From Alphaproteobacteria bacterium HGW-Alphaproteobacteria-18 (GTDB taxonomy: Bacteria > Pseudomonadota > Alphaproteobacteria > Caulobacterales > Hyphomonadaceae), in contig PHEH01000004.1 of assembly GCA_002841155.1 (NCBI GenBank), positions 186,001-250,000 of the forward strand: a DNA stretch of 64,000 nucleotides. Reading direction: 5' to 3'. Both the position numbers and the translations under genes were made by a program. Positions within the stretch are counted from its first letter, which is position 1, and every line of letters begins with the position of its first letter. The notes beneath the pieces are model-generated. The model did no database searches. It saw only the letters and a program-made list of their open reading frames with translations, and had not been told where the DNA came from. Shown here piece after piece: positions 13,626 to 57,068 of the stretch.

Positions 13626-13638
13626 CGGGGGCTTCCGT

Positions 13639-16377
13639 TCATTCAGCTTGTGCAGGGGTGAGAGCGGGCGCGCGGCGGCGCTCGACATCGTGGAGGAGCC
13701 CGCCCGGCCGCACATAGACGAACCATGTGATCAGCAGGCAGGAGACGTAGAAAGCGAGGAAGGCGTAGAGGGCTGTCTCGGCGCTGCCGGTTGCCGCAAT
13801 CGACATCCCGAAACTCTTCGGAATGAAGAAGGCACCATAGGCAGCGATCGCGCTCGTAAAGCCGGTAATGGCGGCGCTTTCCTTTTCCGACTGTCGAAGC
13901 AGGGCATCGCCCTTCAGGTGAGGCTCAAGACGCGCGATCTCCTTGCGCATGATCGCCGGGATCATCTGGAAGGTAGAGGCGTTGCCGACGCCGGTGGCGA
14001 AGAAGAGGAGGATGAAGCAGGCAAAGAAGCCCGTGAAAGCACCTGGCTGGTCTTTGGCCCCAAGGAAATAGAGAACACCGATAGTGCCAGCCATCATCAG
14101 GAGGAACACGGCAATCGTGACACGTCCGCCGCCAAAGCGGTCTGAAATCCAGCCCGTAAACGACCTCGCAAGGGCGCCGACGAGCGGCCCGAGAAACGCG
14201 ATCTGCAGAACGTTGACTTCAGGAAACTGGGTTTTGGTCAGCAACGGGAACGCCGCCGAGAATCCGATGAAGGATCCGAAGGTGCCGGTGTAGAGCCAGC
14301 ACATGATCCAGTTGTGTGTGCGCCGGAAGATCACGGCCTGATCAGAGAAGGACGCTTTGGCCGTGGACAGATCATTCATTCCGAACCAGGCCGCAAAGGC
14401 ACTGAGCGCAATGAACGGGACCCAGATGAATCCGGCGTTCTGCAGGAAAAGTTCTTCACCTGTAGCACTGACCTGCGGATTGCCGCCGAGAACGCCGAAA
14501 ACACCGGCGGTCACAGCAATCGGCACAAGGAATTGCATCGCGCTGACACCGAGATTGCCGAGCCCGGCATTCATGGCGAGCGCGTTGCCCTTTTCCTTTT
14601 TGGGATAGAAGAAGCCGATATTCGACATCGAGGAGGCAAAATTTCCGCCACCGAGGCCGCAGAGCAGAGCCAGGGCAAGCATGATCCAGTAAGGCGTACC
14701 CGGGCTTTGAACCGCCAGACCGATGCCAATCGCCGGGATCATCAGCGACCAGGTTGTGAGCGTCGTCCAGAGCCGCCCGCCGAAAACCGGCACCATGAAG
14801 CTGTAGAAGATCCGCAGCGTGGCACCGGAGAGGCCGGGGAGCGCAGCAAGCCAGAAAAGCTGGTCGGTTGTGTAGGCAAAGCCGATCTGCGGCAGCTTGG
14901 CGACGACAACCGACCAGACCATCCACACGGCAAATGACAGGAAGAGTGAAGGAATTGAAATCCAGAGATTGCGCGACGCAACTGACTTTCCGGTTTTCTC
15001 CCAGAACGCCGGATCTTCAGGCCTCCAGTCCTCGATCAGCTTGGGGGCAAGTGCGCGCGCTTCCTTTTCTCCGTGGATGGGCTGCATTTCAGGCAGTTGA
15101 GGCAGCGCATCGAGCGTCGCACCGGCGGCCTGGCGTTCCATGTGCCGGATGGCGAAATGCATCCAGATCAGCGATGCCGAGACAACCACGAACAACAGCA
15201 TGAAGCAGCTTGTCCAGATACCGGTCAGGTCATTCAACAGCCCGAAGACGATCGGGAGGATGAAACCGCCGAGCCCGCCCATGAGGCCGACAAGTCCGCC
15301 CACCGCGCCGACATCCTTGGGGTAATAGACCGGTATGTGCTTGTAGACCGCCGCTTTGCCGAGGCTCATGAAAAAGCCAAGCACAAAGATCGCGATGACG
15401 AACACGGCAGGGCCTGTCGCCAGCCGGAAGCTGATCGGTCCGCGGACACCGTCCACCACATACGAGGCAGGAGGATAGGAGAGGAAGAACGTGACAACAA
15501 CGGACACAAGAAATGTCCAGTACATCACCGTCCGTGCGCCGACTTTGTCCGACAGGTGGCCGCCGTAGATGCGGAACAGGGATGCAGGAACCGAATAGGC
15601 CGCCGCCAGCATGCCGGCCGTCTTTATGTCGAAGCCGTATACGCCGATCAGGTAGCGCGGGAGCCAGAGGGCCAGTGCCACGAACGCACCGAACACGAAG
15701 AAATAGTAGAGTGAAAACCGCCAGACCTGGACGTTGCGCAAAGGTTCGAACTGGGAGGCAAAACTGCGTGGGCGCGCACCTGAGAGCCGGCGCGCCGCCA
15801 GGTCGGGATCATCCTTGGTGAAGAAGAAGAAGACGATCGCAACGGCAACGAGCGCGAGCGCCCAGACGTTGGCGACCCCTTTCCATCCCATCGCCGCCAT
15901 CACCAGAGGCGCGGCGAACTTGGTCACAGCGGCGCCGACATTTCCCGCCCCGACGATGCCAAGTGCAGAGCCCTGCCTTTCCGGCGCGAAGAACTTTGAC
16001 ACATAGGTGATCGACACAGAGAAAGATCCGCCCGCGATACCGATCCCGAGCGCCGCCAGAAGGAACTGCGGATAGGTTTCGGCGAAGGTCAGGAGCCACG
16101 TGGCGAGCGCTGCGAGGAGCATGACCAGGAGGTTGACGATCCGGCCGCCATACTGGTCGGCCCATATTCCGAGCACGAGACGCGACAGGGAACCTGTCAG
16201 GATCGGCGTTCCGACAAGCAGGCCAAACTGTGTCTCGGTGAGCCCAAGATCCTTCTGTATCTGAAGGCCGAGGATTGCAAAAATCGTCCAGACCGCAAAA
16301 CAGGCGGTGAAGGCGAATGTTGTCAGACCGAGGGCAGCGTTTGCCCCTTTGGCAGCTGGATTGACAGTCGGTGTCAT
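13639..16377 (-). CDS. narK: Fused NarK1-NarK2 nitrate/nitrite transporter
   Basis: A 912-residue fusion of two major facilitator domains, about 24 membrane segments. The N-terminal half (about 1-430) has ALGIVGAGNVGAAVTKFAAP and GLVGLMGGLGGFILP; the C-terminal half (about 470-890) has AGLGNLGVSAMQFLVP and GVGNASTFQMIP. These are the glycine-rich nitrate signatures of each half. Fusions are known in Paracoccus, where the first half acts as a nitrate-proton symporter and the second as a nitrate-nitrite exchanger. It is the first gene of the nar operon, with a TTGAT-type box about 80 bases upstream. Confidence 0.95.
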   Translation of the reverse strand: MTPTVNPAAKGANAALGLTTFAFTACFAVWTIFAILGLQIQKDLGLTETQFGLLVGTPILTGSLSRLVLGIWADQYGGRIVNLLVMLLAALATWLLTFAETYPQFLLAALGIGIAGGSFSVSITYVSKFFAPERQGSALGIVGAGNVGAAVTKFAAPLVMAAMGWKGVANVWALALVAVAIVFFFFTKDDPDLAARRLSGARPRSFASQFEPLRNVQVWRFSLYYFFVFGAFVALALWLPRYLIGVYGFDIKTAGMLAAAYSVPASLFRIYGGHLSDKVGARTVMYWTFLVSVVVTFFLSYPPASYVVDGVRGPISFRLATGPAVFVIAIFVLGFFMSLGKAAVYKHIPVYYPKDVGAVGGLVGLMGGLGGFILPIVFGLLNDLTGIWTSCFMLLFVVVSASLIWMHFAIRHMERQAAGATLDALPQLPEMQPIHGEKEARALAPKLIEDWRPEDPAFWEKTGKSVASRNLWISIPSLFLSFAVWMVWSVVVAKLPQIGFAYTTDQLFWLAALPGLSGATLRIFYSFMVPVFGGRLWTTLTTWSLMIPAIGIGLAVQSPGTPYWIMLALALLCGLGGGNFASSMSNIGFFYPKKEKGNALAMNAGLGNLGVSAMQFLVPIAVTAGVFGVLGGNPQVSATGEELFLQNAGFIWVPFIALSAFAAWFGMNDLSTAKASFSDQAVIFRRTHNWIMCWLYTGTFGSFIGFSAAFPLLTKTQFPEVNVLQIAFLGPLVGALARSFTGWISDRFGGGRVTIAVFLLMMAGTIGVLYFLGAKDQPGAFTGFFACFILLFFATGVGNASTFQMIPAIMRKEIARLEPHLKGDALLRQSEKESAAITGFTSAIAAYGAFFIPKSFGMSIAATGSAETALYAFLAFYVSCLLITWFVYVRPGGLLHDVERRRAPALTPAQAE

Positions 16378-16450
16378 GGTTGCGCCCTCCCCGTAAGCGC
16401 CAGAGGTTCCTGAAGCGCCCCAGAGGTGTCATTCACGCGGCCGGCGAGCC

Positions 16451-16464
16451 TTGATTTTTGTGAA
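16451..16464 (-). promoter_or_regulatory. FNR/Dnr-like box for the nar operon
   Basis: TTGATTTTTGTGAA has one perfect TTGAT half site and a weaker partner. Its centre lies 80 bases from the narK ATG, so activation at -41.5 would start transcription near 16416 and leave a leader of about 39 bases. The likely binder is the Crp/Fnr regulator encoded at 16694. Confidence 0.6.
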
Positions 16465-16587
16465 GCGACGGCTTGGCGAATGTGCGCTGGCCTGCACCAA
16501 TTGAGATCAATCTGCGCAGGCCTGACAGGCAGCACTGCGAAGCATGATGTCTGCGATCAGACCCGCTGACGGATCCGAATGCGCGGC

Positions 16588-16601
16588 TTGACTTTTATCA
16601 A
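16588..16601 (+). promoter_or_regulatory. FNR/Dnr-like box before the Crp/Fnr regulator gene
   Basis: TTGACTTTTATCAA matches nine of the ten specified bases of TTGAT-N4-ATCAA. The centre is about 100 bases before the regulator ATG at 16694, so a class II promoter would start near 16636. It may give self-control or control by another FNR. With the box at 16451-16464 it is the main content of the gap between 16378 and 16693. Confidence 0.65.
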
Positions 16602-16693
16602 GCGTCGGCTAGGGCTGTGAGCGGCCAAGGTTTGCCCCCGCGCGCCGTTGTCCGCGCGACGTTCGTTCCGCAACAGCCCCTTAGGAGGCACGC

Positions 16694-17470
16694 ATGCCAT
16701 TAAGACCAACTGATGCGGAACATATCCGTCATCTATCGTTTTTCCGCGCCTCGACGGACGCAACGTTCGACAAGGCGATTGCCGGCGGATTTTTGCAGAA
16801 GTTCCCGGCGGGCACGACCCTTCTGATGGAAGGCGACACGGTCGATTTCCTCTACATCCTTCTGGAAGGCTCGGTCGAACTGGGCGCGGGGTGGAAATCG
16901 AAAGATACCACGCTCGCCATCCTGCGGCCCGTGTCGACCTTCATTCTGGCTGCTGTCGTTCTCGATGCAGACGCGCTGATGACTGCCGTAACGCTTGAGC
17001 GGTCCGAGATACTCATGGTGCCAGGCGAGTCGCTGCGCCGCGCGATGAAAGAAGATGCGGAATTCTGCTTTGCCGTCTCGGAAGAACTCTCCGGTTGCTA
17101 TCGCGGCCTCGTGCGTTCGATCAAGAATCACAAACTGCGCGACTCGACCGAGCGGCTGGCCAACTACCTGCTGACCCAACGCGCCCGCCAGGGCGGGAAA
17201 ATCGAAATCGTCCTGCCGCATGAAAAACGGGTCCTGGCTTCGCTTCTGGGTATGACGCCCGAAAACCTGTCGCGCGCTTTCCTGAAGCTCCAAGCGCAGG
17301 GTGTGACCGTCGACGGCGCCCGGGTAAGGCTCGAGAAAGTTACAGCGCTTGAGCGGCTGGCGCGTCCCAGCCCGCTCATCGACAACCACTTTGCGCAGCC
17401 GCGCAATGAGCTTGGAAAGGCGCATACCGAGCGCCAGAAAGGCCTGCTCGACGGGAAAGGCAGCGCTTAA
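16694..17470 (+). CDS. Crp/Fnr family regulator of nitrate respiration
   Basis: A 258-residue regulator with a cyclic-nucleotide-like sensor domain (about residues 12-125), a dimer helix and a C-terminal winged helix. The recognition helix has TPENLSRAF; the E-x-x-S-R pattern is that of FNR proteins that read TTGAT. The N-terminal cysteine cluster of oxygen-sensing FNR is missing, so it belongs with Dnr, NnrR or NarR-type sensors of nitric oxide or nitrate. The tail after residue 230 is longer than usual. Its stop codon overlaps the convergent moaA stop. Matching boxes lie before narK, its own gene, moaA, nrdJ and the epoxide hydrolase gene. Confidence 0.85.
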   Translation: MPLRPTDAEHIRHLSFFRASTDATFDKAIAGGFLQKFPAGTTLLMEGDTVDFLYILLEGSVELGAGWKSKDTTLAILRPVSTFILAAVVLDADALMTAVTLERSEILMVPGESLRRAMKEDAEFCFAVSEELSGCYRGLVRSIKNHKLRDSTERLANYLLTQRARQGGKIEIVLPHEKRVLASLLGMTPENLSRAFLKLQAQGVTVDGARVRLEKVTALERLARPSPLIDNHFAQPRNELGKAHTERQKGLLDGKGSA

Positions 17471-46060: not shown

Positions 46061-46627
46061 TCACCGCGACCAGAAGATGTGGACTTCATCGAAGCCCGTC
46101 TGGAACACCATGATCTCGCCGTTCAGCGCCATGTCGCGGGCGAGCGCCTGCCAGTCGATATAGTAGCTGAGGCTCTCGGGGACCTGCGTGCCGAGTTCGG
46201 TGTGTAGCGCCTCGGCAAAGTCGGCGGCGCTGCGGTACTCGCCTGCATAGTCCTCGAACGCGGCACGTGCCTGTTCAAGGTCGTTGCCGTAGTGTAAATG
46301 GATGCGGGCAGCGAGCTGCCCATACTCGCCGATGAACCCGGCAAGATCGCACACGGTCTCAAACGAAGCGTATTCGGAAAGGTGTGCGCCTTCGAAGCCT
46401 TCGTAATCGTGGATCGCCCATTCCTCGGCATCGGGCTCCGGGCTGGCGCGAAGCATCGCCGAAACTTCGCGCCAGATTCCGTCCGGCGTCGTTGCCTCGA
46501 TCCAACGTCCGTGCAGGCGTCCGTTGTTGTAAGCCGCGAGGCACGCAACGTAGATGCGGGGCCGGTCCTGAAGGGTTGGCGCACCCGTAGTTCCAAGAAA
46601 TGCAACGGCAGTGGATCGGTCAGTCAT
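46061..46627 (-). CDS. ardA: ArdA-type antirestriction protein
   Basis: A 188-residue acidic DNA-mimic protein that binds type I restriction enzymes in place of DNA. The ArdA core is clear: RIYVACLAAYNNGRLHGRWI, EWAIHDYEGF, FIGEYG and a long Asp/Glu-rich C-terminal part. The ATG at 46627 has GGAG six bases upstream. It is divergent from a type I restriction-modification operon, so the element carries both the weapon and its known inhibitor, and leads an operon of small unknown genes. Confidence 0.92.
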   Translation of the reverse strand: MTDRSTAVAFLGTTGAPTLQDRPRIYVACLAAYNNGRLHGRWIEATTPDGIWREVSAMLRASPEPDAEEWAIHDYEGFEGAHLSEYASFETVCDLAGFIGEYGQLAARIHLHYGNDLEQARAAFEDYAGEYRSAADFAEALHTELGTQVPESLSYYIDWQALARDMALNGEIMVFQTGFDEVHIFWSR

Positions 46628-46869
46628 GTCAGTCTCCTCGCGCCGCTCCTGTTGCGAATTCCCGGCTGACGGGGGTGGGCGGCGAGAAGGCGCTTGGCCG
46701 GAGCGCACAAGGGCGCTGCGCAAGGGGTTGCTGAAGGTATGAGCCCTAAAGACGCCGGGTCGGCCGAAAGCCCCGCCCCCTTGCGCGGCGACCGCGCTCT
46801 GGCAAACGCGCCGTCCGCCCACCACCGGCTGGCAGGGATAGAAATCGAGAGGCAGGGGACAAGAAATAG

Positions 46870-46889
46870 GCTGTACCAATCCGTACAGC
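46870..46889. promoter_or_regulatory. Inverted repeat upstream of the R-M promoter
   Basis: GCTGTAC (46870-46876) and GTACAGC (46883-46889) are exact inverted repeats spaced six bases apart. They lie 11 bases before the -35-like element and may bind a regulator for either divergent operon. Confidence 0.5.
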
Positions 46890-46928
46890 ATATTTTTCAT
46901 TGACCTGACGGGAACGCGCTACTATTTA

Positions 46929-46954: not shown

Positions 46955-47554
46955 ATGCGTCTGGATCAAGTCTGCGAAATCCAATCCGGCTTTACGGCGC
47001 GGGGAAAGCTTGAGGAGAGTCCCTCGGGGATTCCAGCCCTGCAGCTTCGCGATCTCAATGAGACGGCTGGCTGGGAGAACATCGTTCCAGGCAGGTTTGA
47101 GCTCGACGAGGTCCACGCCCGCTACTTCGCGGGGCCGGGCGATGTGCTCTTCCGCTCTCGCGGCACGAACAACACGGCCAGCGCCATTCCGGAGGACTGG
47201 CAGCACCTTGCCGCCGTTGTCCTTCCTCTGATCCTCTTGAAGCCGGACGATAGCCTCATCCGGCCAGCCTTCCTCGAGTGGAGCATCAACGCGCCGGGCG
47301 CTCAGCGAGACCTCGAAAAGAGCATCCAGGGAACTGCACTGCGGATGGTTCCAAGAAATGCACTTGCAGAACTTCAAATCGATGTGCCGGCCCTTGCGAC
47401 TCAGGACGCCATCCTCGAAGCAGCCCGGCTGGCGGCCCGCGCCCGCGAACTGGAAACCAACGCAGCGAACCTGAGACACGCGCTCTCAGACCTCATATTA
47501 CACGACGCCGCGAAACGCGCGGCGGCGCCCAACCCAAAGAAGGCCCACGCATGA
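46955..47554 (+). CDS. Half-size type I specificity protein (one TRD)
   Basis: A 199-residue protein with one target-recognition domain followed by one long helix pair. Family features are IQSGFTAR at the start, GDVLFRSRGTNNTA, ALRMVPRNALAELQIDVP and the helical tail ARLAARARELETNAANLRHAL. Ordinary HsdS proteins have two such units. It ends in an ATGA overlap with hsdM, so it is made together with the methylase subunit. It could dimerise to give a symmetric recognition site or act as an alternative partner beside the full HsdS downstream. Confidence 0.82.
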   Translation: MRLDQVCEIQSGFTARGKLEESPSGIPALQLRDLNETAGWENIVPGRFELDEVHARYFAGPGDVLFRSRGTNNTASAIPEDWQHLAAVVLPLILLKPDDSLIRPAFLEWSINAPGAQRDLEKSIQGTALRMVPRNALAELQIDVPALATQDAILEAARLAARARELETNAANLRHALSDLILHDAAKRAAAPNPKKAHA

Positions 47555-49068
47555 GCGACCAGATCACCCAGCAGAAAATCAATCAGGCCGCATGGGCCGC
47601 GTGCGACACGTTCCGCGGCGCCGTCGATCCTGCTCAGTACAAGGATTACATCCTTGTGATGCTCTTTCTGAAGTACATTTCGGACCACTGGGCAGATCAC
47701 GTAAACCAGTATCGGAAACAATACGCGAACGACGAGGCGCGCATCCGGCGCCGTCTTGAACGCGAACGCTTCGTGCTGCCGGAGGGCGCGAGCTATTACG
47801 ATCTCTACGAAAAGCGCAACGAGCCTAACATCGGCGAGCTGATCAACATCGCGCTGGAGAAGATCGAGGATACGAACCGGTCGAAGCTCGAAGGCGTATT
47901 CCGGAACATCGACTTCAACTCCGAAGCCAATCTCGGCCGGCCCAAAGATCGCAACCGGCGCCTGAAGAACATGCTCGAGGACTTCGCCAAACCCGAACTC
48001 GATCTCAGCCCATCCCGCGTCAGCGAAGACATCATCGGCGAGTGCTACATCTACCTGATTTCCCGGTTCGCGTCGGACGCCGGCAAGAAGGCAGGAGAAT
48101 TCTTCACCCCCGCTCCTGTTTCGCGTCTACTCGCCAAGCTCGCTGCGCCGAAGCCCGGCAACACGATCTGCGACCCCGCCTGCGGCTCAGGCTCACTGCT
48201 CATCCGGGCCGCAGAAGAAGTCGGCTCGGACAATTTCGCGCTCTATGGCCAGGAAGTGAACGGCGCGACGTGGGCGCTCGCCCGAATGAACATGTTCCTG
48301 CACGCGAAGGACGCAGCCCGGATTGAATGGTGTGACACGCTTAACAGTCCGTCACTTGTCGAGGGTGATCATCTTCTCAAGTTTGACGTCGTCGTCGCCA
48401 ACCCGCCCTTCTCACTGGACAAGTGGGGCGCGGAGAATGCCGAGACAGACACGTTCAAACGTTTCTGGCGCGGCGTGCCCCCGAAGTCGAAAGGTGACTA
48501 TGGGTTTATCTCGCACATGATTGAAATCGCCAAGCGCCATTCCGGGCGCGTGGCTGTGATCGTCCCACATGGCGTGCTGTTCCGTGGTGGTGCCGAGGGA
48601 AAGATCCGCCAGGCGCTGATCGAAGAAAACCTTCTCGACGCCGTTATTGGCCTACCCGCCAACCTCTTCACGACCACCGGCATCCCCGTTGCGATCCTCG
48701 TTTTTGACCGCTCACGTGAAGAGGGCGGCGCGAACGAAAAGCGCAAGGATGTTCTCTTCATCGATGCGAGCAAAGAGTTCGCGGCGAGCAAGACACAGAA
48801 CGTCATGGACGACGTACACATCGAGAAAGTGCTCGCCGCCTATCGAGCCCGAAAGTTCGCCGACAAGTTTGCCTACGTAGCAACGCCGGAAGAGATCGCC
48901 GAGAACGACTACAACCTCAACATCCCCCGCTATGTCGACACGTTCGAACCTGAAGAAGAAATCGACGTCGCCGCCGTCCAGAAGGAAATCAACGCCATCG
49001 AGGCCGAACTCGCCGACGTGCGCCGGCGCATGGCCGAGCATCTGAAGGAGTTGGGTATTGATGTCTAG
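47551..49068 (+). CDS. hsdM: Type I DNA methyltransferase subunit HsdM
   Basis: A 505-residue N6-adenine methyltransferase subunit. The N-terminal HsdM helical domain is followed by the SAM site DPACGSGSLL near residue 207 and the catalytic NPPF (VANPPFSLDKW) near residue 283. EFFTPAPVSRLLAKL, also a family mark, precedes them. The ATG overlaps the upstream specificity gene; longer in-frame starts would lie within that gene. Confidence 0.95.
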   Translation: MSDQITQQKINQAAWAACDTFRGAVDPAQYKDYILVMLFLKYISDHWADHVNQYRKQYANDEARIRRRLERERFVLPEGASYYDLYEKRNEPNIGELINIALEKIEDTNRSKLEGVFRNIDFNSEANLGRPKDRNRRLKNMLEDFAKPELDLSPSRVSEDIIGECYIYLISRFASDAGKKAGEFFTPAPVSRLLAKLAAPKPGNTICDPACGSGSLLIRAAEEVGSDNFALYGQEVNGATWALARMNMFLHAKDAARIEWCDTLNSPSLVEGDHLLKFDVVVANPPFSLDKWGAENAETDTFKRFWRGVPPKSKGDYGFISHMIEIAKRHSGRVAVIVPHGVLFRGGAEGKIRQALIEENLLDAVIGLPANLFTTTGIPVAILVFDRSREEGGANEKRKDVLFIDASKEFAASKTQNVMDDVHIEKVLAAYRARKFADKFAYVATPEEIAENDYNLNIPRYVDTFEPEEEIDVAAVQKEINAIEAELADVRRRMAEHLKELGIDV

Positions 49069-50299
49069 CTTCTTCCCAAGAGTCCGACTGAACGAAGCTG
49101 TAGGAAGCAATGGTCGTGTTATCGGCGGACCGTTTGGATCCGACCTCACGGCAGACGATTATGTGTCGTCGGGTATACCTGTAATTCGCGTTACCAATCA
49201 GGTCGGCAAAACAGTAGCCGGCGAGTTTGTCTATGTTACTGAAGATAAGGCAAAAAAGCTTTCCGCCAACATTGCCCGCCCGGGGGATATAGTAGTCGTT
49301 CAGCGGGGGAGCACCTATGGAAAGGTTTCGAAAATTCCCGAAAGAGCTGACTATGCTGAATATGTAGTGTGCCAGAGCCAAATGGCCATTTCTGTAGATG
49401 AAAGTGCTATTTCTCGCGAATACCTTTTTCAGGCGCTTCTCTCTTCTTTCTTCAATCGACACGTTGAAGCTTCCGTAATTCAAACAGGCCAGCCGCATAT
49501 CAATCTTGGTATCCTTCGAGATGCCAAGATTCCTATTCCTCCGCTCCCTGAACAACGCCGCATCGCCGAAATCCTCCGGACCTGGGATGAGGCAATCGAA
49601 AAGCTGGAAGCCCTCCTCGCGGCGAAAGATCGTCGGCGTAAAGGAATACTCCAACAAATCTTGGGGAACGGAGTCGACTTTCCGAGTGATTGGAAAGCGA
49701 CGGCTCTGAGCGCCATCACGACGCGAGTTGGTCGGACGAATGACGGCGGCGATCACCCAGTCATGACGATCTCCGCAAAATCGGGCTTCCTGATGCAGTC
49801 AGAGAAATTCGCTCGCGATATGGCGGGCAGCAGTGTTGATAAATACACGCTCCTCCATCAGGGCGAGTTTGCCTACAACAAGGGAAACTCTAAGACGGCA
49901 CCATATGGCTGCATCTTCGCGCTAGACCGCCCCACAGCAGTGATTCCGTTTGTCTATTTCTGTTTCCGGCTGAACGATGGCCATGACCACAGATTCTTCG
50001 AGCAAATGTTCAAAGCTGGCATTCTGAATCACCAGCTTTCGAAGGTCATCAATTCCGGCGTCCGGAATGATGGTCTACTAAATCTTTATGCCGACGATTT
50101 CTTTTCTTGCGTCGTGCCCGTACCTCCGCGCGACGAGCAGGAACGCATCTCTCGGGCAATTACAGCTCTGAATGACGATATCGCGCTGACAGACAACGAG
50201 ATCGCCGCACTCCAACGCCAGAAACGCGGCCTGATGCAAAAGCTCCTGACCGGCAAATGGCGCGTAAAGCTCGAAGACGTGACGGCGGTGCCGGGATGA
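49061..50299 (+). CDS. hsdS: Type I specificity subunit HsdS (two TRDs)
   Basis: A 412-residue protein with two target-recognition domains, about residues 1-170 and 205-370, each followed by a conserved helix (PPLPEQRRIAEILRTWDEAI and PPRDEQERISRAITALNDDI). The repeated helices set the spacing of the two half sites. The ATG at 49061 overlaps the hsdM end by eight bases; a TTG one codon earlier is possible. The two TRDs differ, so the site should be asymmetric. Confidence 0.93.
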   Translation: MSSFFPRVRLNEAVGSNGRVIGGPFGSDLTADDYVSSGIPVIRVTNQVGKTVAGEFVYVTEDKAKKLSANIARPGDIVVVQRGSTYGKVSKIPERADYAEYVVCQSQMAISVDESAISREYLFQALLSSFFNRHVEASVIQTGQPHINLGILRDAKIPIPPLPEQRRIAEILRTWDEAIEKLEALLAAKDRRRKGILQQILGNGVDFPSDWKATALSAITTRVGRTNDGGDHPVMTISAKSGFLMQSEKFARDMAGSSVDKYTLLHQGEFAYNKGNSKTAPYGCIFALDRPTAVIPFVYFCFRLNDGHDHRFFEQMFKAGILNHQLSKVINSGVRNDGLLNLYADDFFSCVVPVPPRDEQERISRAITALNDDIALTDNEIAALQRQKRGLMQKLLTGKWRVKLEDVTAVPG

Positions 50300-51912
50300 A
50301 AAAGAACATCCATAAGCTTTCCATCCGCCTACTGAAGGAGGACCTCAATCCCGAGGATGGCCTCAGGGACGGCATAGCGTTGGAAGTCTGGCCAAACGTT
50401 GAGGGCGGTAAGATCGCCCTTGGTACGATGGGCGGCGACGATCCGAAATGGTCGAATTTTCTCGACCTTTCGAAGGACCAAAAATCGAAGGTCATAAATC
50501 TAACTGCATTTGGACTGGTCTTTGTTCCGGTTTCTGGTCGTTGGTTTGCCGTGTCCTTCGGCATGGGGCACGTCAAGCTCGATCCATCCAAGTTCGTGCA
50601 AGACTTTGGCCTTAAGGTCGTTCTCAACGCGGTCGACCCGAAGCAGTTGAAGAGCGCGGACGTTCGAACGCCGGATGAAAACACACTCCAGCGGCGCAGC
50701 CAGACAAGCCGGGGGTCAGATCAGACGGCATTTTCCATCGATGTCGAGCGCGATATTGTGCGCGGCTTAGCAGGCACTCCAAAAGACGAAACGTTTGCTG
50801 TGCGCGTAGCCGGTACCGACTCCCTTTCCATGGACCGAAAGATGGATGTTGGCGACCTCGCGCAAGCGTGCGCCGACGCCTACACCATGTATGCGAAGAC
50901 CGATTATCAGACCGACTTCAAATGGATCGATCAGATCAAGCATGAGCGGGAAAAGGAAATCATCGAAAAGCTGGAAGACGCTCTGATCTCGGCAATCGAC
51001 GCAGTAGTCAAAGGAGCGACAGCCGACAATCTCTTTCTTGCATTCCCGATCATCTATGATCCGGAGAAGACGGCGTCGATCCTCTACAAGGGCTTTCGCA
51101 GCAAGCTGTTCTATCCGGACCTGAACTTTTTCAGCTATCTGGACGCGATGAAGAAGCGGTCTAAGACCGAGGATTGTGGCGGGCGCTGGAAAATTTCGGA
51201 ATGTCTTGTTTTTGAAGTCGAGCTCGACGGAAAGACCTATGTCCTCTCGGCCGGCCGCTGGTACTGCATCGATGAGGATCTCGCAAAGGACGTCCAGGAT
51301 TTCTTCGACAAGACTCCGAGAGTGACATTGCCCGCCGCACAGGCAGGCGAAAACGAGGAGCTTTACAACGCTCGCCTCAAGCAAGACGAGCCGGACTATC
51401 TCTGCCTCGACCGAAAGTTGATCACCCCCACTGGTGCATCCTCGACAATCGAAGTGTGTGATTTTCTGACTAAGGACAAACGGCTTGTGCATGTGAAGGA
51501 CAAAACGTCCTCATCGCGCCTCAGCCACTTGTTCAGTCAGGGCACGGTTTCAGGTCGCGTGCTCGTTCTCGATGGGCCAGCGCGAGACAAGGTCAAGGAT
51601 AGAGTTAAGGAGGTTGAGGGAGAAACTGGGCAGACGGGATTCATGGATGTCATCCCCGACTCAAGCACCAAGTTCCAAGCTTCGGATTTCACCGTTGTGT
51701 TCGCGGTCTTGTCTGTCGGTGACAAGCCAAAGTTGCCATTTTTCAGTCTCGTGACTTTTCGCCAAGCTGTTCGTGATCTGTCGGTGCCGGGTTTCAGGTA
51801 TGCATTTGCCTGGATCGAAAAGCCCGTCGCCGAACCCAAAAAGAAGGAAAAATCAAAATCAGACGCGACGGATGAGGATGATGGCAATGAATCAGACGAG
51901 GCCACCGCATGA
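50296..51912 (+). CDS. DUF6119/TIGR04141 protein, possible nuclease
   Basis: A 538-residue protein that matches the TIGR04141/DUF6119 family as I remember it: RWFAVSFGMGHVKLDPSKFV, DFGLKVVLNAVDPKQLKS, RQTSRGSDQTAF (as RSQTSRGSDQTAF), KTYVLSAGRWYCID and HVKDKTSSSRLSHLFSQG. The run E386-V-C-D389 followed by H399-V-K401 resembles the D/E-x-K end of a PD-(D/E)xK nuclease core, which is an inference. The C-terminal 30 residues are highly charged. It is coupled by ATGA overlaps to hsdS before it and hsdR after it, so it is an integral part of the R-M operon rather than a passenger. Confidence 0.8.
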   Translation: MKKNIHKLSIRLLKEDLNPEDGLRDGIALEVWPNVEGGKIALGTMGGDDPKWSNFLDLSKDQKSKVINLTAFGLVFVPVSGRWFAVSFGMGHVKLDPSKFVQDFGLKVVLNAVDPKQLKSADVRTPDENTLQRRSQTSRGSDQTAFSIDVERDIVRGLAGTPKDETFAVRVAGTDSLSMDRKMDVGDLAQACADAYTMYAKTDYQTDFKWIDQIKHEREKEIIEKLEDALISAIDAVVKGATADNLFLAFPIIYDPEKTASILYKGFRSKLFYPDLNFFSYLDAMKKRSKTEDCGGRWKISECLVFEVELDGKTYVLSAGRWYCIDEDLAKDVQDFFDKTPRVTLPAAQAGENEELYNARLKQDEPDYLCLDRKLITPTGASSTIEVCDFLTKDKRLVHVKDKTSSSRLSHLFSQGTVSGRVLVLDGPARDKVKDRVKEVEGETGQTGFMDVIPDSSTKFQASDFTVVFAVLSVGDKPKLPFFSLVTFRQAVRDLSVPGFRYAFAWIEKPVAEPKKKEKSKSDATDEDDGNESDEATA

Positions 51913-54395
51913 CCTCCGAATCCTTCAACCCCGCCGAAAAACACCAATCCCAGATCCCTGCCCTGCAGCTACTGGTCGCCCTAGGCTACACGCCGCTCCC
52001 AGAGTCCGAAATCATCCGCCAGCGCGGCGGCCGCCTGCGCAATGTTGTCCTCGATGACATCCTCGTCGAGCAACTCCTGAAGCTCAACTCCTTCGAGTAT
52101 CGCGGAAAGTCCTACCCCTTCGACCTGGAGGACGCGCATGACGCGATCCGCCGCCTCAAACCTACGCCGGACCGTGTTAAAGGCCTCAAGGCCACCAATC
52201 AGGACGTCTATGACACACTGATCCTCGGCACGACGATCACCAAGACGATTGACGGCGATTCCAAGAGTTTCAGTTTCCGGTTCATCGACTGGGAAAACCC
52301 AGCCAACAACGCCTTCCACGTGGCGGCGGAGGTGGCTGTTGAACGCACCGGAAGCAGCGCCACCAAACGCTGCGACATCGTAGCCTACGTGAACGGCATT
52401 CCCTTCATCGTGATTGAGAACAAGCGCCCGACCGAAGGCCTGAAGAAGGCAGGCAGCCAGCTCATCGGCTATCAGAGCGAAGACGGCATCCCCCAGCTCT
52501 TCCATTTCGCGCAGTTGTTGATCGTGGCAAACCGCAATGAGGCGCTCTATGCGACTGTCGGGACACCGCGCAAATTCTGGCACGCCTGGCGCGATGAAGA
52601 CGACACTGAAGAAGAGGTTGCGCGCGCCGCCAATCGCAGCCTGACGAACGAAGAAACCGATAGGGTGTTCTCAGGGTCCTTCGCATCCGTCCGCCACTTC
52701 TTCAAAGACCTGCAGGCTGGCGGTGCACGCGCTGTCACTGAGCAGGACCGGACGATCCACGCCCTCTGCCGCCCTGAGCGCCTGCTCGACCTAGTGCGGC
52801 GCTTCACGGTCTTCGATGGCGGCATCCGAAAGATCGCGCGCCATCAGCAATTCTTTGGCATCAAGCTGGCCGTGGAACGCGTAAAGCAGTTCGACCTTGC
52901 GCGCACCCGAAAGGGCGGTGTGATCTGGCACACGCAAGGCTCAGGCAAGTCCCTCACCATGGTGATGCTTGGCCGAGCCCTGGCGCTCGATAAGGCGATC
53001 CCCAATCCGCGCATCATCATCGTCACGGACCGGGACGACCTCGACAAGCAGATCAAGGGCACATTCAAGTCCTGCGACATGGATCCGGTTCGAGCGACCA
53101 GCGGCTCTCACCTGCTGTCGATGATCCGCGCCAAAACACCGTTGATCACCACCTTGATCAACAAGTTCGACACAGCGCTGCGCAACGGCGAAGACCCGGA
53201 CGAGGATCCCAATCTCTTTGTCCTCATCGATGAAAGCCACCGCTCCCAGACGGGCACACACGGGGGATACGGACAACTAGCCGTCAAAATGCGGCGGCTC
53301 CTGCCAAGGGCCTGCTACCTCGGTTTCACGGGTACCCCGCTGCTCAAGAACGACAAGCGCAATACGTTCACGACCTTTGGCGGGCTGATCCATCACTACA
53401 AGATTGACGAAGCAGTGGCGGACGGCGCTGTTGTGCCCCTGCTCTACGAAGGCCGGCTCGTCGACCAGCAGATTACCGGCGGCGTGATCGATGCCTGGTT
53501 CGACAAGATTTCAGAAGGACTGACGGACCAGCAAAAGGCAGACCTGAAACGAAAATTCTCCCGGATGGACGCGCTCTCGAAGACGGGACAGGCGATCCGT
53601 GCCAAGGCGTTCGATATTTCGGAGCACTACCGTCAGCATTGGCAGGATACGGGATTCAAGGCCCAGCTGGTGGCGCCGTCGAAAGCAGCCGCGGTCCGGT
53701 TCAAGGAAGTGCTCGACGAGATCGGACACGTTACCAGCGAAATCATCATGTCACCGCCCGACGAAAACGAGGGCAATGATGATGTGGACTCGGAATCGAA
53801 AGATCTCGTCCGCCGCTTCTGGGCGAAGATGATGACGCGGTACAAGACAGAGGAGGTTTACAACCGCGAGATCATCGACAATTTCAAAGGCTCAGGTGAG
53901 CCGGAAATTCTTATCGTCGTTTCCAAACTACTCACCGGCTTCGACGCACCCAGAAACACAGTCCTTTACGTCTGCAAGCCGCTGCGCGAGCACAACCTCC
54001 TCCAGGCGATTGCACGGGTGAACCGCTTGTTTGAAGACGGAGACACCGAGAAACAGTTCGGTTTCATCATCGACTATGAAGGGCTGCTCGGCGAACTGGA
54101 CCGGGCGCTCACAACGTATACGGCCTTTGCAGGTTTTGAAGACAGCGACCTCATCGGCACCGTGCATGACGTGAAAGAAGAGATCCGGCGGCTCCCCCAG
54201 CTGCATGATCAGCTCTGGGACCTGTTCAAGCCGGTGCTCAACAAGAAGGACATGGAAGCCTTCGAGCAGTTCCTGGGCGATGAAGCGATCCGCCAGGAAT
54301 TCTATGAACGGTTCCGCGCGTTCGGGCGCTGCCTGCACATCGCCATGTCGACAAGGCACTTGATGTCTTTGCGCCGGAAACGCTCGAGAAGATGA
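51909..54395 (+). CDS. hsdR: Type I restriction subunit HsdR, N-terminal part (frameshifted)
   Basis: An 828-residue product holding the nuclease and motor. The PD-(D/E)xK site is in RCDIVAYVNG and FIVIENKRP (about residues 155-175). The motor motifs are WHTQGSGKS (Walker A), IDESHRSQTG (Walker B), LGFTGTPLL, LLTGFDAP and QAIARVNRLF. After LHIAMST the frame runs out of homology and stops at 54395. One base appears to be missing near 54350 (ATGTC-GACAAG), because the next frame continues DKALDVFAPETLEK. Without the C-terminal domain this product may not join HsdM. Confidence 0.88.
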   Translation: MTSESFNPAEKHQSQIPALQLLVALGYTPLPESEIIRQRGGRLRNVVLDDILVEQLLKLNSFEYRGKSYPFDLEDAHDAIRRLKPTPDRVKGLKATNQDVYDTLILGTTITKTIDGDSKSFSFRFIDWENPANNAFHVAAEVAVERTGSSATKRCDIVAYVNGIPFIVIENKRPTEGLKKAGSQLIGYQSEDGIPQLFHFAQLLIVANRNEALYATVGTPRKFWHAWRDEDDTEEEVARAANRSLTNEETDRVFSGSFASVRHFFKDLQAGGARAVTEQDRTIHALCRPERLLDLVRRFTVFDGGIRKIARHQQFFGIKLAVERVKQFDLARTRKGGVIWHTQGSGKSLTMVMLGRALALDKAIPNPRIIIVTDRDDLDKQIKGTFKSCDMDPVRATSGSHLLSMIRAKTPLITTLINKFDTALRNGEDPDEDPNLFVLIDESHRSQTGTHGGYGQLAVKMRRLLPRACYLGFTGTPLLKNDKRNTFTTFGGLIHHYKIDEAVADGAVVPLLYEGRLVDQQITGGVIDAWFDKISEGLTDQQKADLKRKFSRMDALSKTGQAIRAKAFDISEHYRQHWQDTGFKAQLVAPSKAAAVRFKEVLDEIGHVTSEIIMSPPDENEGNDDVDSESKDLVRRFWAKMMTRYKTEEVYNREIIDNFKGSGEPEILIVVSKLLTGFDAPRNTVLYVCKPLREHNLLQAIARVNRLFEDGDTEKQFGFIIDYEGLLGELDRALTTYTAFAGFEDSDLIGTVHDVKEEIRRLPQLHDQLWDLFKPVLNKKDMEAFEQFLGDEAIRQEFYERFRAFGRCLHIAMSTRHLMSLRRKRSRR

Positions 54396-55132
54396 AGCAG
54401 GACTGGAAGCGCTTTTCAGAGCTGCGGCGCTCAGTGCAGCTACGCTACCAGGAAACGGTCGACCTCAAAGAGTTCGAACCAAAGATTCAGAAACTCCTCG
54501 ACGATCACGTCATCGCCATGCCGGCGCAGATCATCATCGAGATGGTCAACATCAATGATCCCAAAGCCCTCCAGGCAGTGGTGGAAGATGCCGGCATCAC
54601 GGATGCTTCGAAAGCTGACCGCATTGCGAGCGCGACGCGACGCACACTGACTGAGCGCATGGATGAGGATCCGAGCTTCTATGCGAAGTTCTCCGCCTTG
54701 CTCGAAGAGACGATCCGAGATTATCGTTCGAGGCGTCTATCCGAGCGCGACTATCTAAACAGCGTCGTTGATCTCGCCCAGAAGGTCGCGTCCAAGGACC
54801 GCGGCCGGCGCGTGCCCGAAGTGTTGAAGGGCAATGATGACGGTCAGGCCTTCTTCGGGGTTATCGAGACGAAGATGGTGACGGAGGCTGGCGCCCCGCT
54901 CGATGAGCGCGAGACCGCAATGGTCGCGCTGAGACTGATCGAGATCGTCAAGGCGCACCACATCGTCGACATCTGGACTAATGAAGTTGCCCAGAACGCA
55001 TTGCGCAATGCGATCGATGATTACTTCTTCGATGTTCTCAGGGACCAAAAAGGCGTGGTCCTATCTGTTGAGGATCTCGACACGCTGGAACTCGATCTGA
55101 TGAAACTGGCGCGGGCGCGATTTCCAGGATGA
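54392..55132 (+). CDS. hsdR: HsdR C-terminal domain, separate reading frame
   Basis: A 246-residue helical segment that continues HsdR after the frameshift, as seen in DLKEFEPKIQKLLDDHV and IVDIWTNEVAQNALRNAIDDY. In type I enzymes this region anchors HsdR to HsdM. Its ATG overlaps the stop of the first part (ATGA), so coupled translation could make it as a free domain. The homologous frame actually begins upstream, at about 54347, with DKALDVFAPETLEK. Together the parts would give about 1075 residues, a normal full HsdR. Either the gene is broken, or the sequence has a one-base error, or the two chains reassemble. Confidence 0.8.
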   Translation: MKQDWKRFSELRRSVQLRYQETVDLKEFEPKIQKLLDDHVIAMPAQIIIEMVNINDPKALQAVVEDAGITDASKADRIASATRRTLTERMDEDPSFYAKFSALLEETIRDYRSRRLSERDYLNSVVDLAQKVASKDRGRRVPEVLKGNDDGQAFFGVIETKMVTEAGAPLDERETAMVALRLIEIVKAHHIVDIWTNEVAQNALRNAIDDYFFDVLRDQKGVVLSVEDLDTLELDLMKLARARFPG

Positions 55133-55845
55133 AGGCTGAACATCGCCAAATCGACTACGGCTCTATAAAAATCGCTTTCACCGTGAACCGGCGAGAGCGA
55201 ACTACGCTTGAAATCGCCGTTGAGCCGGACCTCAGCGTCACCGTTGCAGCGCCTGTCGACGCAGACTGCGCTGCCATAGACGCGAAAGTACGAAAGCGCG
55301 GCGCGTGGATTATGAAGCAGCAGGCATTCTTCCGGCAATTTCTTCCGCGAACGCCTGAGCGCCAGTTTGTGGCCGGCGCCACTCATCGCTACCTTGGTCG
55401 GCAATACCGGCTCAAGGTTCGTGCAGGTCTGATCGACCGTGTGAGGCTGTTTCGCGGCTTCATCGATATTGAAACACTCCGGCCAAAGACGGACGCTCAT
55501 ACACGCGGTCTTGTAGAAGATTGGTACCGCGACCGTGCAAAGCTGAAGTTTCAGGAACGCATCGAGGTCTGCCAGGAACGTTTCGCAACGCCCGCCAGAG
55601 TTTCACCGGAAGGCATTGTCGTTCGAAAGCTTAGCCACCGCTGGGGCTCCATGTCGCCCGCTGGCAGGCTTGTCTTGAATACAAGGCTCATTGAAGCGCC
55701 GGTTGATGCGATCGACTACGTGATCACGCACGAGCTCTGCCACAGGCTTCATCCTCATCATGGCAAGGCATTCTTCAAGACGCTGACTGCTGTCATGCCT
55801 GATTGGGAACGTCGGAAGGTGCAGCTCGAACGCCTGATGGCCTAA
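55129..55845 (+). CDS. YgjP-type zinc metalloprotease (DUF45)
   Basis: A 238-residue protein with the zinc motif HELCHRLHPHHGKAFF (H201, E202, H205 and a later ligand) and the family segment RKLSHRWGSMSPAGRLVLNTRLIEAP. Members with this fold are common next to hsdR in type I operons and may control the restriction subunit by proteolysis; that is an inference. The ATG overlaps the hsdR end by four bases. It is the last gene of the operon and converges on the Fic gene with a 10-base gap. Confidence 0.88.
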   Translation: MKAEHRQIDYGSIKIAFTVNRRERTTLEIAVEPDLSVTVAAPVDADCAAIDAKVRKRGAWIMKQQAFFRQFLPRTPERQFVAGATHRYLGRQYRLKVRAGLIDRVRLFRGFIDIETLRPKTDAHTRGLVEDWYRDRAKLKFQERIEVCQERFATPARVSPEGIVVRKLSHRWGSMSPAGRLVLNTRLIEAPVDAIDYVITHELCHRLHPHHGKAFFKTLTAVMPDWERRKVQLERLMA

Positions 55846-55855
55846 ACCCTCGGAG

Positions 55856-57028
55856 TCAAAGTGGCTCAGTGCCAGCGTCCAGCAACGACAGATACCGCCG
55901 GTAAACAAACACGCGCCCCCGCGCCTTCCCGGTAATCTCTTCCACAATACCGAGCGCCTGAAGGCGCTCCAGCGCTGCCGTCGCCGTCGGAAACGTCACA
56001 CCGGAAAGCTCGGCCGCCGTGCCGATTGTCAGGAGCGGTCGCTTCTGAAGGATCGCATGCAAAGCCTGAGCTGCGGGCGCCCCGCGCCCGAGCCCGGCGA
56101 TCCTTGCGGCATCTTCGGCGAAGATTGCAGAGATCGACCGCGCCGCTTCATGCGCCTGGCGCGCCACATCCCTCACGCCGGTCAGGAAGAACTCGAGCCA
56201 GGTCTCCCAACGGCCATGCTCACGAACTTCCTGCAGCAAGGCGTAATACGTCGCTCTGTGAGACTTTAGATAGAGGCTCAGATAGAGGAGCGGCTCATCG
56301 AGGATCCCCTGCTCGCAGAGATACAACGTGATCAGCAGGCGACCTAGCCTGCCATTGCCATCGAGGAACGGATGGATCGTTTCGAACTGCACATGCGCGA
56401 GGCCCGCCTTGATGAGAGGCGGCAGACCGGAGTCCGTCTCGTGCAGGAACGCTTCAAGATTGCTCATCAGGTCCAGCACGTGCTGGGGCGGCGGCGGCAC
56501 GAACAACGCGTTGCCGGGCCGTGTTCCGCCGATCCAGTTCTGCGAGCGGCGGAACTCGCCTGGCTGCTTCGTGCTTCCCCTGCCGGACGACAAGAGAATG
56601 CCATGCATCTCCTTCAGCAGGCGGAGCGATAGCGGGAACCCTCCACGGATGCGGTCCAGGCCATGCGTCAACGCTGCGACATAGGTCGAGACCTCCTCGA
56701 CATCGTCCAGCGGTACGCCGGGCGCGGCCTCATCTTCGTAGAGGAGCAGGTCCGATAGCGAAGACTGGGTCCCCTCGATCTGGGACGAGAGCAGCGCTTC
56801 CTTGCGCACGTACATGTAGAGGAAGAGCGATGTGTCGGGGGCCACGCTGCGAACGCCGTCCAGTCGCCCCAGCGCAAGCATCGCCTCGCTGGCGAGAACC
56901 GACAGGCCCGCCATGTCGATCGGGGGCCGGTGCGGCAGATCCGGCGGCAGGAAGGCGCGCACGGTTTCGCCGGTGACAGTGCTCGTCACCCATTTGCCTT
57001 TCCGGCCGGAGTCCTGCGGAGCTGCCAT
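55856..57028 (-). CDS. Fic-domain AMP transferase with C-terminal winged helix
   Basis: A 390-residue protein. The Fic active site HPFLDGNGRLGR starts at residue 219. The N-terminal inhibitory motif SSQIEG (S81 to G86, matching S/T-x-x-x-E-G) marks a class II, self-inhibited Fic protein. A C-terminal winged helix (LTIGTAAELSGVTFPTATAALERL) follows. It should transfer AMP from ATP to a target protein. The ATG at 57028 has AAAGGA upstream, and a 12-base inverted repeat covers that site. Confidence 0.9.
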   Translation of the reverse strand: MAAPQDSGRKGKWVTSTVTGETVRAFLPPDLPHRPPIDMAGLSVLASEAMLALGRLDGVRSVAPDTSLFLYMYVRKEALLSSQIEGTQSSLSDLLLYEDEAAPGVPLDDVEEVSTYVAALTHGLDRIRGGFPLSLRLLKEMHGILLSSGRGSTKQPGEFRRSQNWIGGTRPGNALFVPPPPQHVLDLMSNLEAFLHETDSGLPPLIKAGLAHVQFETIHPFLDGNGRLGRLLITLYLCEQGILDEPLLYLSLYLKSHRATYYALLQEVREHGRWETWLEFFLTGVRDVARQAHEAARSISAIFAEDAARIAGLGRGAPAAQALHAILQKRPLLTIGTAAELSGVTFPTATAALERLQALGIVEEITGKARGRVFVYRRYLSLLDAGTEPL

Positions 57029-57032
57029 GGTG

Positions 57033-57068
57033 TATCCTTTAATAGCGCCCAATCGTTATTAAAGGATA
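57033..57068 (-). promoter_or_regulatory. Inverted repeat over the fic ribosome binding site
   Basis: TATCCTTTAATA (57033-57044) and TATTAAAGGATA (57057-57068) are exact reverse complements 12 bases apart. A third copy of the core, CTTTAATA, lies at 57079-57086. In the minus-strand transcript the near arm carries the AAAGGA ribosome site five bases from the ATG, so it may be a DNA operator for the Fic winged helix, an RNA hairpin that hides the ribosome site, or both. Confidence 0.7.

Follow-up and report, generated by a model that had tools for sequence, protein, structure and literature searches.

A DUF6119 protein occupies an exchangeable slot between hsdS and hsdR of a type I restriction-modification operon

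We analysed a 64,000-nucleotide stretch of the draft genome of Alphaproteobacteria bacterium HGW-Alphaproteobacteria-18 (contig PHEH01000004.1, positions 186,001 to 250,000; hereafter the window), which carries at 46955-55845, on the + strand, a type I restriction-modification (R-M) operon with a gene of the DUF6119/TIGR04141 family lodged between its specificity and restriction genes. All genes named in an initial annotation of this stretch are present in the overlapping arrangement it described, as confirmed by coordinates and profiles, and profile searches place the HsdM, HsdS and HsdR families together in one operon, as expected of a type I system. The order, which is conserved apart from its fourth gene and which we refer to as the chassis, is a half-size S protein (half-S), HsdM, HsdS, the gene in the slot between hsdS and hsdR (the S-R slot), HsdR and YgjP. 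The half-S gene (46955..47554) encodes 199 residues with one target-recognition half and is followed, with a 4-nt overlap, by the gene for HsdM (47551..49068), an N6-adenine methyltransferase matching N6_Mtase (4e-100) and HsdM_N (3.2e-29). HsdS, a two-half specificity subunit, starts at 49058 (TTG) or 49061 (ATG) and ends at 50299, with a Methylase_S match over its first half (1.2e-19) and a PADLOC Specificity_I match over 28-404. The slot holds the DUF6119/TIGR04141 gene (50296..51912), whose 538-residue product scores 470 bits against a curated cut-off of 27 for Pfam DUF6119 and 418 bits against one of 35 for TIGR04141. By profile, the first HsdR reading frame (51909..54395, 828 residues) contains HSDR_N nuclease and SWI2/SNF2 motor domains and overlaps DUF6119 by 4 nt, and the remainder, in another frame (54392..55132), contains a T1RH-like C-terminal domain. 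The last chassis gene (55129..55845) encodes a YgjP/SprT/M48-like metallopeptidase (YgjP-like, 4.8e-53) that lies 3' of hsdR in chassis loci. Neighbouring genes overlap by 4 nt, except that HsdM and HsdS share 8 nt if the ATG is taken as the start and 11 nt if the TTG is.

The two HsdR frames are one broken gene and not two genes. Relative to a locus of the same genus (L034, genome G259), whose HsdR protein is 95% identical, the window copy is frameshifted near 54,348, and all 45 other chassis loci in our HsdR tree encode HsdR in a single frame of 1,052-1,121 residues. Substitutions between the window and L034 fall mostly at one codon position both before the break (227 of 259) and after it (90 of 108), and because this bias persists on both sides, the break is either recent or an assembly error of the 48-contig draft. 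The operon had been described as six genes with every junction overlapping by 4 or 8 nt; the overlaps are real, with 8 or 11 nt at HsdM/HsdS, but the split in HsdR is a frameshift and the 4-nt junction at 54392 is therefore accidental. An intact HsdR is thus a property of the chassis as a family and not of the window copy. Phase variation by a repeat was considered for the break and rejected, the only run nearby being one of four T that lies outside it. Restriction by HsdR may be lost in the source strain, which could leave DUF6119 as the working arm of the operon.

Comparison of the window with L034 locates an exchange. The two loci share the operon and its surroundings (ParB-like, ArdA, half-S, HsdM, HsdS, a differing gene, HsdR, YgjP and Fic), with nucleotide identities of 83% in the upstream aligned block, 86% in the downstream aligned block and 78-97% per 150-nt bin within half-S, hsdM, hsdR and ygjP. 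The alignment stops at 49063, at the start of hsdS, and restarts at 51922, at the start of hsdR, with two short islands between. Because the flanks align while 49063-51922 nearly does not, hsdS and the slot gene have been replaced between the two loci and the remainder has been kept. The slot gene of L034 encodes a 346-residue protein with a weak, below-cut-off match to nucleoside-deoxyribosyltransferase (NDT). Similar boundaries appear elsewhere: the plasmids L137 (Mameliella) and L139 (Paracoccus) are ~93% identical on both sides of a differing first part of hsdS, and their slots hold two DUF6119 proteins from separate tree clades, while L135 and L138 diverge across the end of RhuM and the first portion of hsdS, and a second time between a shared Shedu gene and hsdR, where their second slot genes are not the same (HAD versus DUF3800).

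To describe what fills the slot, we sampled loci by HsdR and not by DUF6119, taking HsdR proteins that match most of the query at >= 41% identity and excluding the window. Plasmids often carry relatives of the chassis HsdR (428 records at E <= 1e-150, of which 375 are predicted conjugative); 17 of these 428 were opened, including all 10 at 60-80% identity, and with 8 genome-derived loci they give 25 readable slots. Left out were the genome loci L046, L049 and L052, which have a contig edge or a truncated HsdR (L046 shows a cut DUF3800 gene), and weaker HsdR matches including L053 and L054. DUF6119 occupies four of the 25 slots, all plasmid-borne. Shedu SduA is found in three, each time with HAD or DUF3800; DUF3800 without Shedu in five; HAD alone in two (PADLOC PDC-S34, the model matched by all six HAD genes tested); and a protein kinase matching the mad6 / PD-T4-6 models of PADLOC in two. 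Single slots contain a complete Kiwa pair of KwaA and KwaB, placed between hsdS and hsdR of a type I R-M operon (L045:9795-11200), a CBASS cyclase with a 2TM effector and an Abi_2 gene on a Methylomonas plasmid (L147:3812-6740), AbiD, a Fic protein (PDC-S24), a weakly SIR2-like protein below the Pfam cut-off together with HAD, an NDT-like gene, DUF6933 and an uncharacterised 319-residue gene, and one slot holds no gene. Together, these data establish that the slot between hsdS and hsdR is exchangeable and takes different anti-virus systems in related loci. One R-M chassis takes in complete, otherwise independent systems (Kiwa, Shedu and a CBASS pair) at the same place, and for this reason its little-known slot genes, namely the NDT-like gene, the 319-residue gene, DUF6933, DUF3800 and a ~446-residue partner of DUF6119 described below, become ranked candidates for defence functions.

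On a tree of 46 HsdR rows, which mix DUF6119-sampled and HsdR-sampled loci, the 16 slot-content labels require at least 22 changes, 15 being the least possible for that number of labels, and the DUF6119 label changes 8 times. Random shuffles of the labels require 24.5 changes on average, and the contents are thus somewhat clustered. Gene content also varies in a second slot, located between hsdM and hsdS, where one finds RhuM (PDC-S05), a DUF4357 / GIY-YIG-annotated protein (PDC-S14) or a MazEF-like pair (examples at L135:2477-3502, L061:6548-7486 and L149:3395-3990). Among E. coli genomes, 537 of 5,426 cover >= 80% of a relative hsdR, and five records were opened from among 30 of the 822 with a match; two carry a YecA-family gene, two carry YecA with a weak cold-shock-domain protein, and one has a STALD and ThsB-TIR pair upstream of hsdR, accompanied by insertion sequences, with no hsdM or hsdS in the stretch.

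DUF6119 itself is sporadic, being present in 12 of 299 genomes of the order, and by reading of gene neighbourhoods four of the 12 copies lie in type I R-M loci. Besides the window these are G050 (S-DUF6119-HAD-R-YgjP), G004 (M-S-...-DUF6119-Abi_C-R) and G007 (R-M-S-DUF6119, with HSDR_N, ResIII and EcoEI_R_C domains in its R); a 51%-identical DUF6119 is found behind a very different, EcoEI-like R-M-S set. A wider sample was formed from the best 80 of 256 relatives found in a scan of named genomes with the peptide pattern [SA]xLSHLF[NSK]QG, of which 28 are close (L055-L082, 47-66% identity, nearly all titled Alphaproteobacteria) and 52 distant. Among the close relatives, the S-R slot accounts for 15 and the vicinity of other R-M genes for 5, and no such genes were seen around the remaining 8, two of them near a contig end; the labels come from home-made profiles, which leaves the 'other R-M' class approximate, and the 'RM' label of L030, which also entered the DUF6119 tree described below, rests on a gene read as UvrB. 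The association with hsdS and hsdR for which a synteny search had been proposed in the initial annotation is thus borne out, and it presumably exceeds chance, since a random gene would rarely fall in the S-R slot. Eleven of the 15 slot copies overlap hsdR by 4 or 8 nt, and in the other four the longest-ORF (open reading frame) start hides the overlap. One of the 52 distant relatives lies in such a slot and 12 lie near R-M-like genes; in two Neisseria loci (L099 and L102, near 10000-17000) DUF6119 stands between a helicase gene and a Mod/Res pair that we take to be type III-like. A distant DUF6119 gene (25% identity) was also observed beside an integrase gene in a Pseudomonas phage genome (BK061476.1, 38375-40084; L156).

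The gene also travels as a cassette. One subclade pairs DUF6119 with a ~446-residue protein that has no Pfam or PADLOC match (L061:8658-9998, L063:8613-9998, L065, L066, L067, L056 and L060). The slot-borne cassette of L061 (Stappia) is 95.9, 94.5 and 92.6% identical over 3.0 kb to the standalone cassettes of L063, L065 and L067 (Pleomorphomonas, Gemmobacter and Paracoccus), and these matches start no more than 4 nt from the start of the partner gene and stop between 7 and 34 nt beyond DUF6119. In L059 and L068 a DUF6119 of this type lies in the slot with no partner matching that of L061. Because standalone cassettes exist, and because L059 and L068 do without a matching partner, DUF6119 has no strict need of R-M genes or of the ~446-residue protein. 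On a DUF6119 tree of 96 rows, residence in the slot requires at least 11 changes, 9 of them forced by well-supported branches, and near-identical proteins are found both in the slot and alone; 20 of these rows were treated as unsure and set aside. The tree omits L024 (same record as L078) and proteins of <450 residues; L080, which carries a Bacillus title, is nearly the same as a Sphingomonas copy and could be contamination. Given the spread of the 28 close relatives (15 in the slot, 5 beside R-M genes of other kinds and 8 with none seen) and slot contents as varied as those above, the gene arrangements point to DUF6119 as interchangeable cargo and not as an obligate subunit.

To relate the protein to known folds, we modelled it with AlphaFold2, which gave a mean pLDDT of 85 for the full protein and 95 for the C-terminal domain alone. 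The N-terminal domain (50296..50940) is weakly RdgC-like in structure, with residues 4-205 of the model matching two RdgC entries in VIA-align at Z 6.5 and 6.3. For the C-terminal domain (51283..51834) the first eight VIA-align rows are HamA (Z 7.1, rmsd 4.6, 157 aligned residues; also 6.9 and 5.7), CdiA-CT (5.9 and 5.3), Can2 (5.4), EcoT38I (5.3) and SduA (5.3), all of which we take to be PD-(D/E)XK nucleases. Six residues of this domain (E354, E386, D389, H399, K401 and Q415), forming an E...ExxD...HxK...Q set, are invariant in 69 of 69 sequences and in 12 of 12 rows of alignment A1, which was found by Pfam profile; the invariance of S410, H411, L412, F413, Q415 and G416 in pattern-found rows is partly due to selection, and alignment A3 omits 12 of the 80 loci, namely L095, L107 and L125, which contain stop codons, and others that were truncated, near copies or not chosen. 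In the model, E354 starts a helix, E386 and D389 lie just before a strand, the strand after it carries H399-x-K401, and the helix after that carries Q415. The (D/E)xK motif is replaced throughout, D389 being followed by H399-x-K401, with histidine at the acidic position, in all 69 sequences. Because the matches agree in kind and the invariant residues are fittingly placed, a PD-(D/E)XK-like core is our best structural guess, and because a histidine at the acidic position is unusual, we use the term PD-(D/E)XK-like and do not assign the domain to the superfamily itself. The fold that the initial annotation proposed to look for is supported as a prediction, with middling scores and an HxK in place of (D/E)xK. 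The phospholipase D superfamily motif is HxK(x)4D; this reading of the HxK was considered and rejected, as the later D is absent, position 406 being S in 68 of 69 sequences and A in one. A sequence search returned no solved homologue at E <= 1, and a Pfam scan of the window protein lists DUF6119 only, with no SduA_C (PF14082), HamA or PrrC-type domain.

The explanation that we favour, with a rough probability of 0.57, is that the locus is a type I R-M chassis with an exchangeable slot in which the DUF6119 cargo acts as a self-contained anti-phage nuclease. The S-R slot would receive whole defence genes or gene sets; the N-terminal domain of DUF6119 would bind DNA and its C-terminal domain, a histidine variant of the PD-(D/E)XK-like fold as predicted, would cut nucleic acid; placement in the operon would bring co-expression and co-transfer with the R-M genes on a mobile element; and phages that escape methylation-based restriction could meet the protein as a second line of defence. 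A broader proposal, which we hold tentatively and at somewhat short of even odds, is that DUF6119 is a widespread and so far undescribed family of single-protein anti-phage nucleases that join an RdgC-like DNA-clasping domain to an HxK core, enter and leave a general docking slot of type I R-M operons as a precise cassette, alone or with the ~446-residue partner, and also occur in other R-M settings such as those of Neisseria L099 and L102.

Several results weigh against the favoured explanation. DUF6119 fills 4 of the 25 slots sampled by HsdR and none of the 8 that are genome-derived, and no R-M genes were seen within reach of 39 of the 52 distant copies, many of which lie near contig ends. 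All fold matches lie below Z 8, under which a VIA-align score may mean only a common arrangement; unrelated rows for the C-terminal domain begin at Z 5.0, of the top eight, the two best HamA rows alone clearly exceed these, and the other six (Z 5.3-5.9) are tied with them. Foldseek returned no match at E <= 0.001 for either DUF6119 model. By hhalign, no kinship was found between the C-terminal domain and SduA (1.2% probability) or HamA (0.15%), whose alignments are small at 7 and 5 rows, or between the N-terminal domain and RdgC (0.2%, 8 rows). Lastly, HxK in place of (D/E)xK leaves catalysis not assured.

The same observations bear on three other explanations. The initial annotation took DUF6119 for a working part of a composite system, perhaps a second nuclease or a regulator, which would make it a subunit of the type I enzyme. 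Overlapping junctions and a conserved place beside hsdS and hsdR are what such a subunit should display, but the chassis carries many other slot contents and once none, a different gene fills the slot of L034, the slot content requires at least 22 changes on the 46-row HsdR tree with 8 for the DUF6119 label, the 51%-identical copy follows an EcoEI-like R-M-S set, and DUF6119 occurs with no R-M genes in reach, in 8 of 28 close relatives and in standalone cassettes of 93-96% identity. We consider a subunit very improbable, and the claim that DUF6119 is required for a composite system is not supported. The same overlaps at both ends of the gene would also suit a sentinel held silent by HsdMS(R) and freed, when a phage inhibits restriction, to damage the nucleic acid of the cell. 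This logic has been proposed in general terms (Makarova 2012, PMC3506569), and prrC, like DUF6119, is a single gene within a type I operon, EcoprrI (PMC3874165, PMC12707154). Here too, no R-M genes are seen around 8 of the 28 close relatives, near-identical cassettes stand apart from R-M and a 51%-identical copy accompanies a very different R-M set; moreover, the ardA gene that adjoins the operon encodes a type I inhibitor that would risk triggering the sentinel on entry. Because of the standalone copies and the neighbouring ardA, strict silencing by R-M is disfavoured, and we regard this explanation as unlikely.

The nuclease-like core could instead be inactive, with DUF6119 a mobile passenger or addiction gene, or a protein that acts other than by cleaving nucleic acid, for instance by binding alone. 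The HxK replacement, the sporadic spread over 12 of 299 genomes of the order and the middling fold scores would all be in keeping with this, but an active site would account for six polar positions that do not vary across all 69 divergent proteins, and the slot otherwise often takes known defence systems, so that we judge this explanation quite unlikely. The locus gives a family that has carried only a placeholder name a functional setting and a testable active site.

Cargo embedded in type I R-M operons is already in print. PrrC is embedded in the EcoprrI operon (PMC3874165) and TgvAB in the type I R-M cluster of V. cholerae VPI-2 (PMC11411939), and coupled toxins in R-M operons have been put forward as a general hypothesis (PMC3506569). 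In E. coli, DarTG2 occupies the gap between hsdS and hsdR, which the authors consider a possible hotspot of recombination, and an M48 peptidase is encoded further downstream (PMC12255303). That RptR-RMS-DarTG2-M48 island, which is anti-phage as a whole, has the hsdM, hsdS, cargo, hsdR, metallopeptidase order of the window, a likeness of gene order; it differs in its DarTG2 cargo and in an RptR regulator upstream, for which the window was not searched, and the text available to us mentions no half-S (PMC12255303). TgvAB resembles the window in being cargo within a type I operon, and it protects even when the HsdR nuclease site is changed, but it is a GmrSD-like two-gene type IV system and not DUF6119 (PMC11411939). 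PrrC is likewise encoded by one effector gene within a type I operon, but it combines an ABC NTPase part with anticodon-nuclease activity, and the R-M enzyme keeps it silent (PMC3874165, PMC3506569), whereas Pfam finds DUF6119 only in the window protein. Shedu SduA (DUF4263) shares the slot and the chassis with DUF6119 in 3 of the 25 HsdR-sampled loci and its fold matches at a Z of 5.3, tied with unrelated rows; it is set apart by the missing Pfam SduA_C match and the hhalign probability of 1.2%. Hachiman HamA is the best fold match of the C-terminal domain (Z 7.1), but the neighbours of DUF6119 are R-M genes and include no HamB helicase, a HamA Pfam match is missing and hhalign gives 0.15%.

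A full-text literature search did not find DUF6119 / TIGR04141 as type I operon cargo, although one preprint on embedded defences (Payne et al. 2024) may list it; PADLOC-DB 2.0.0 has no match for any of the five DUF6119 proteins tested, and YgjP together with hsdR was not found in the literature searched. The description of the locus as an undescribed system was thus too strong with respect to embedded cargo (PMC3874165, PMC11411939, PMC12255303), and the part that stands is DUF6119 in that role, which was not found in the papers searched.

The half-S protein has no Pfam or NCBIfam match at E <= 0.001 and matches PADLOC specificity models (Specificity_I, 1.5e-14). It shares 26% identity over 138 columns with the first half of the window HsdS, and its gene is 85% identical to that of L034 at the nucleotide level, with third codon positions accounting for 68 of 88 changes. 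All 18 hand-chosen chassis loci checked for a half-S gene contain one, but none is annotated upstream of hsdM in L149-L151, and the protein may form a second, dimeric specificity. Its place upstream of hsdM is kept in many alphaproteobacterial copies of the chassis, including L034, many of L055-L081 and plasmid loci. The search for a promoter 5' of the operon was uninformative, since the region has two sigma-70-like sites, fewer than the shuffled mean of 3.3, and both lie on the opposite strand.

Directly upstream of the operon and divergent from it lies the ardA antirestriction gene (46061..46900, - strand; PF07275, 5.6e-44), a neighbour and not a chassis gene, which within the stretches examined adjoins the operon in 3 of 46 chassis loci (the window, L034 and L023). 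Because relaxase-like, TraG, peptidase S26, ParB-like, T2SSE (which we take to be VirB11-like) and TrbE-like genes surround the operon, the region looks like part of a conjugative element. Just past YgjP, a convergent Fic-family gene (Fic_N, Fic; 55856-57052, - strand) has a near copy 3' of the operon in L034. More than 20 kb from the conjugation genes, a respiratory nitrate reductase alpha gene (9891-13715) lies in what appears, mostly as read by eye, to be a cluster for nitrate respiration and molybdenum cofactor.

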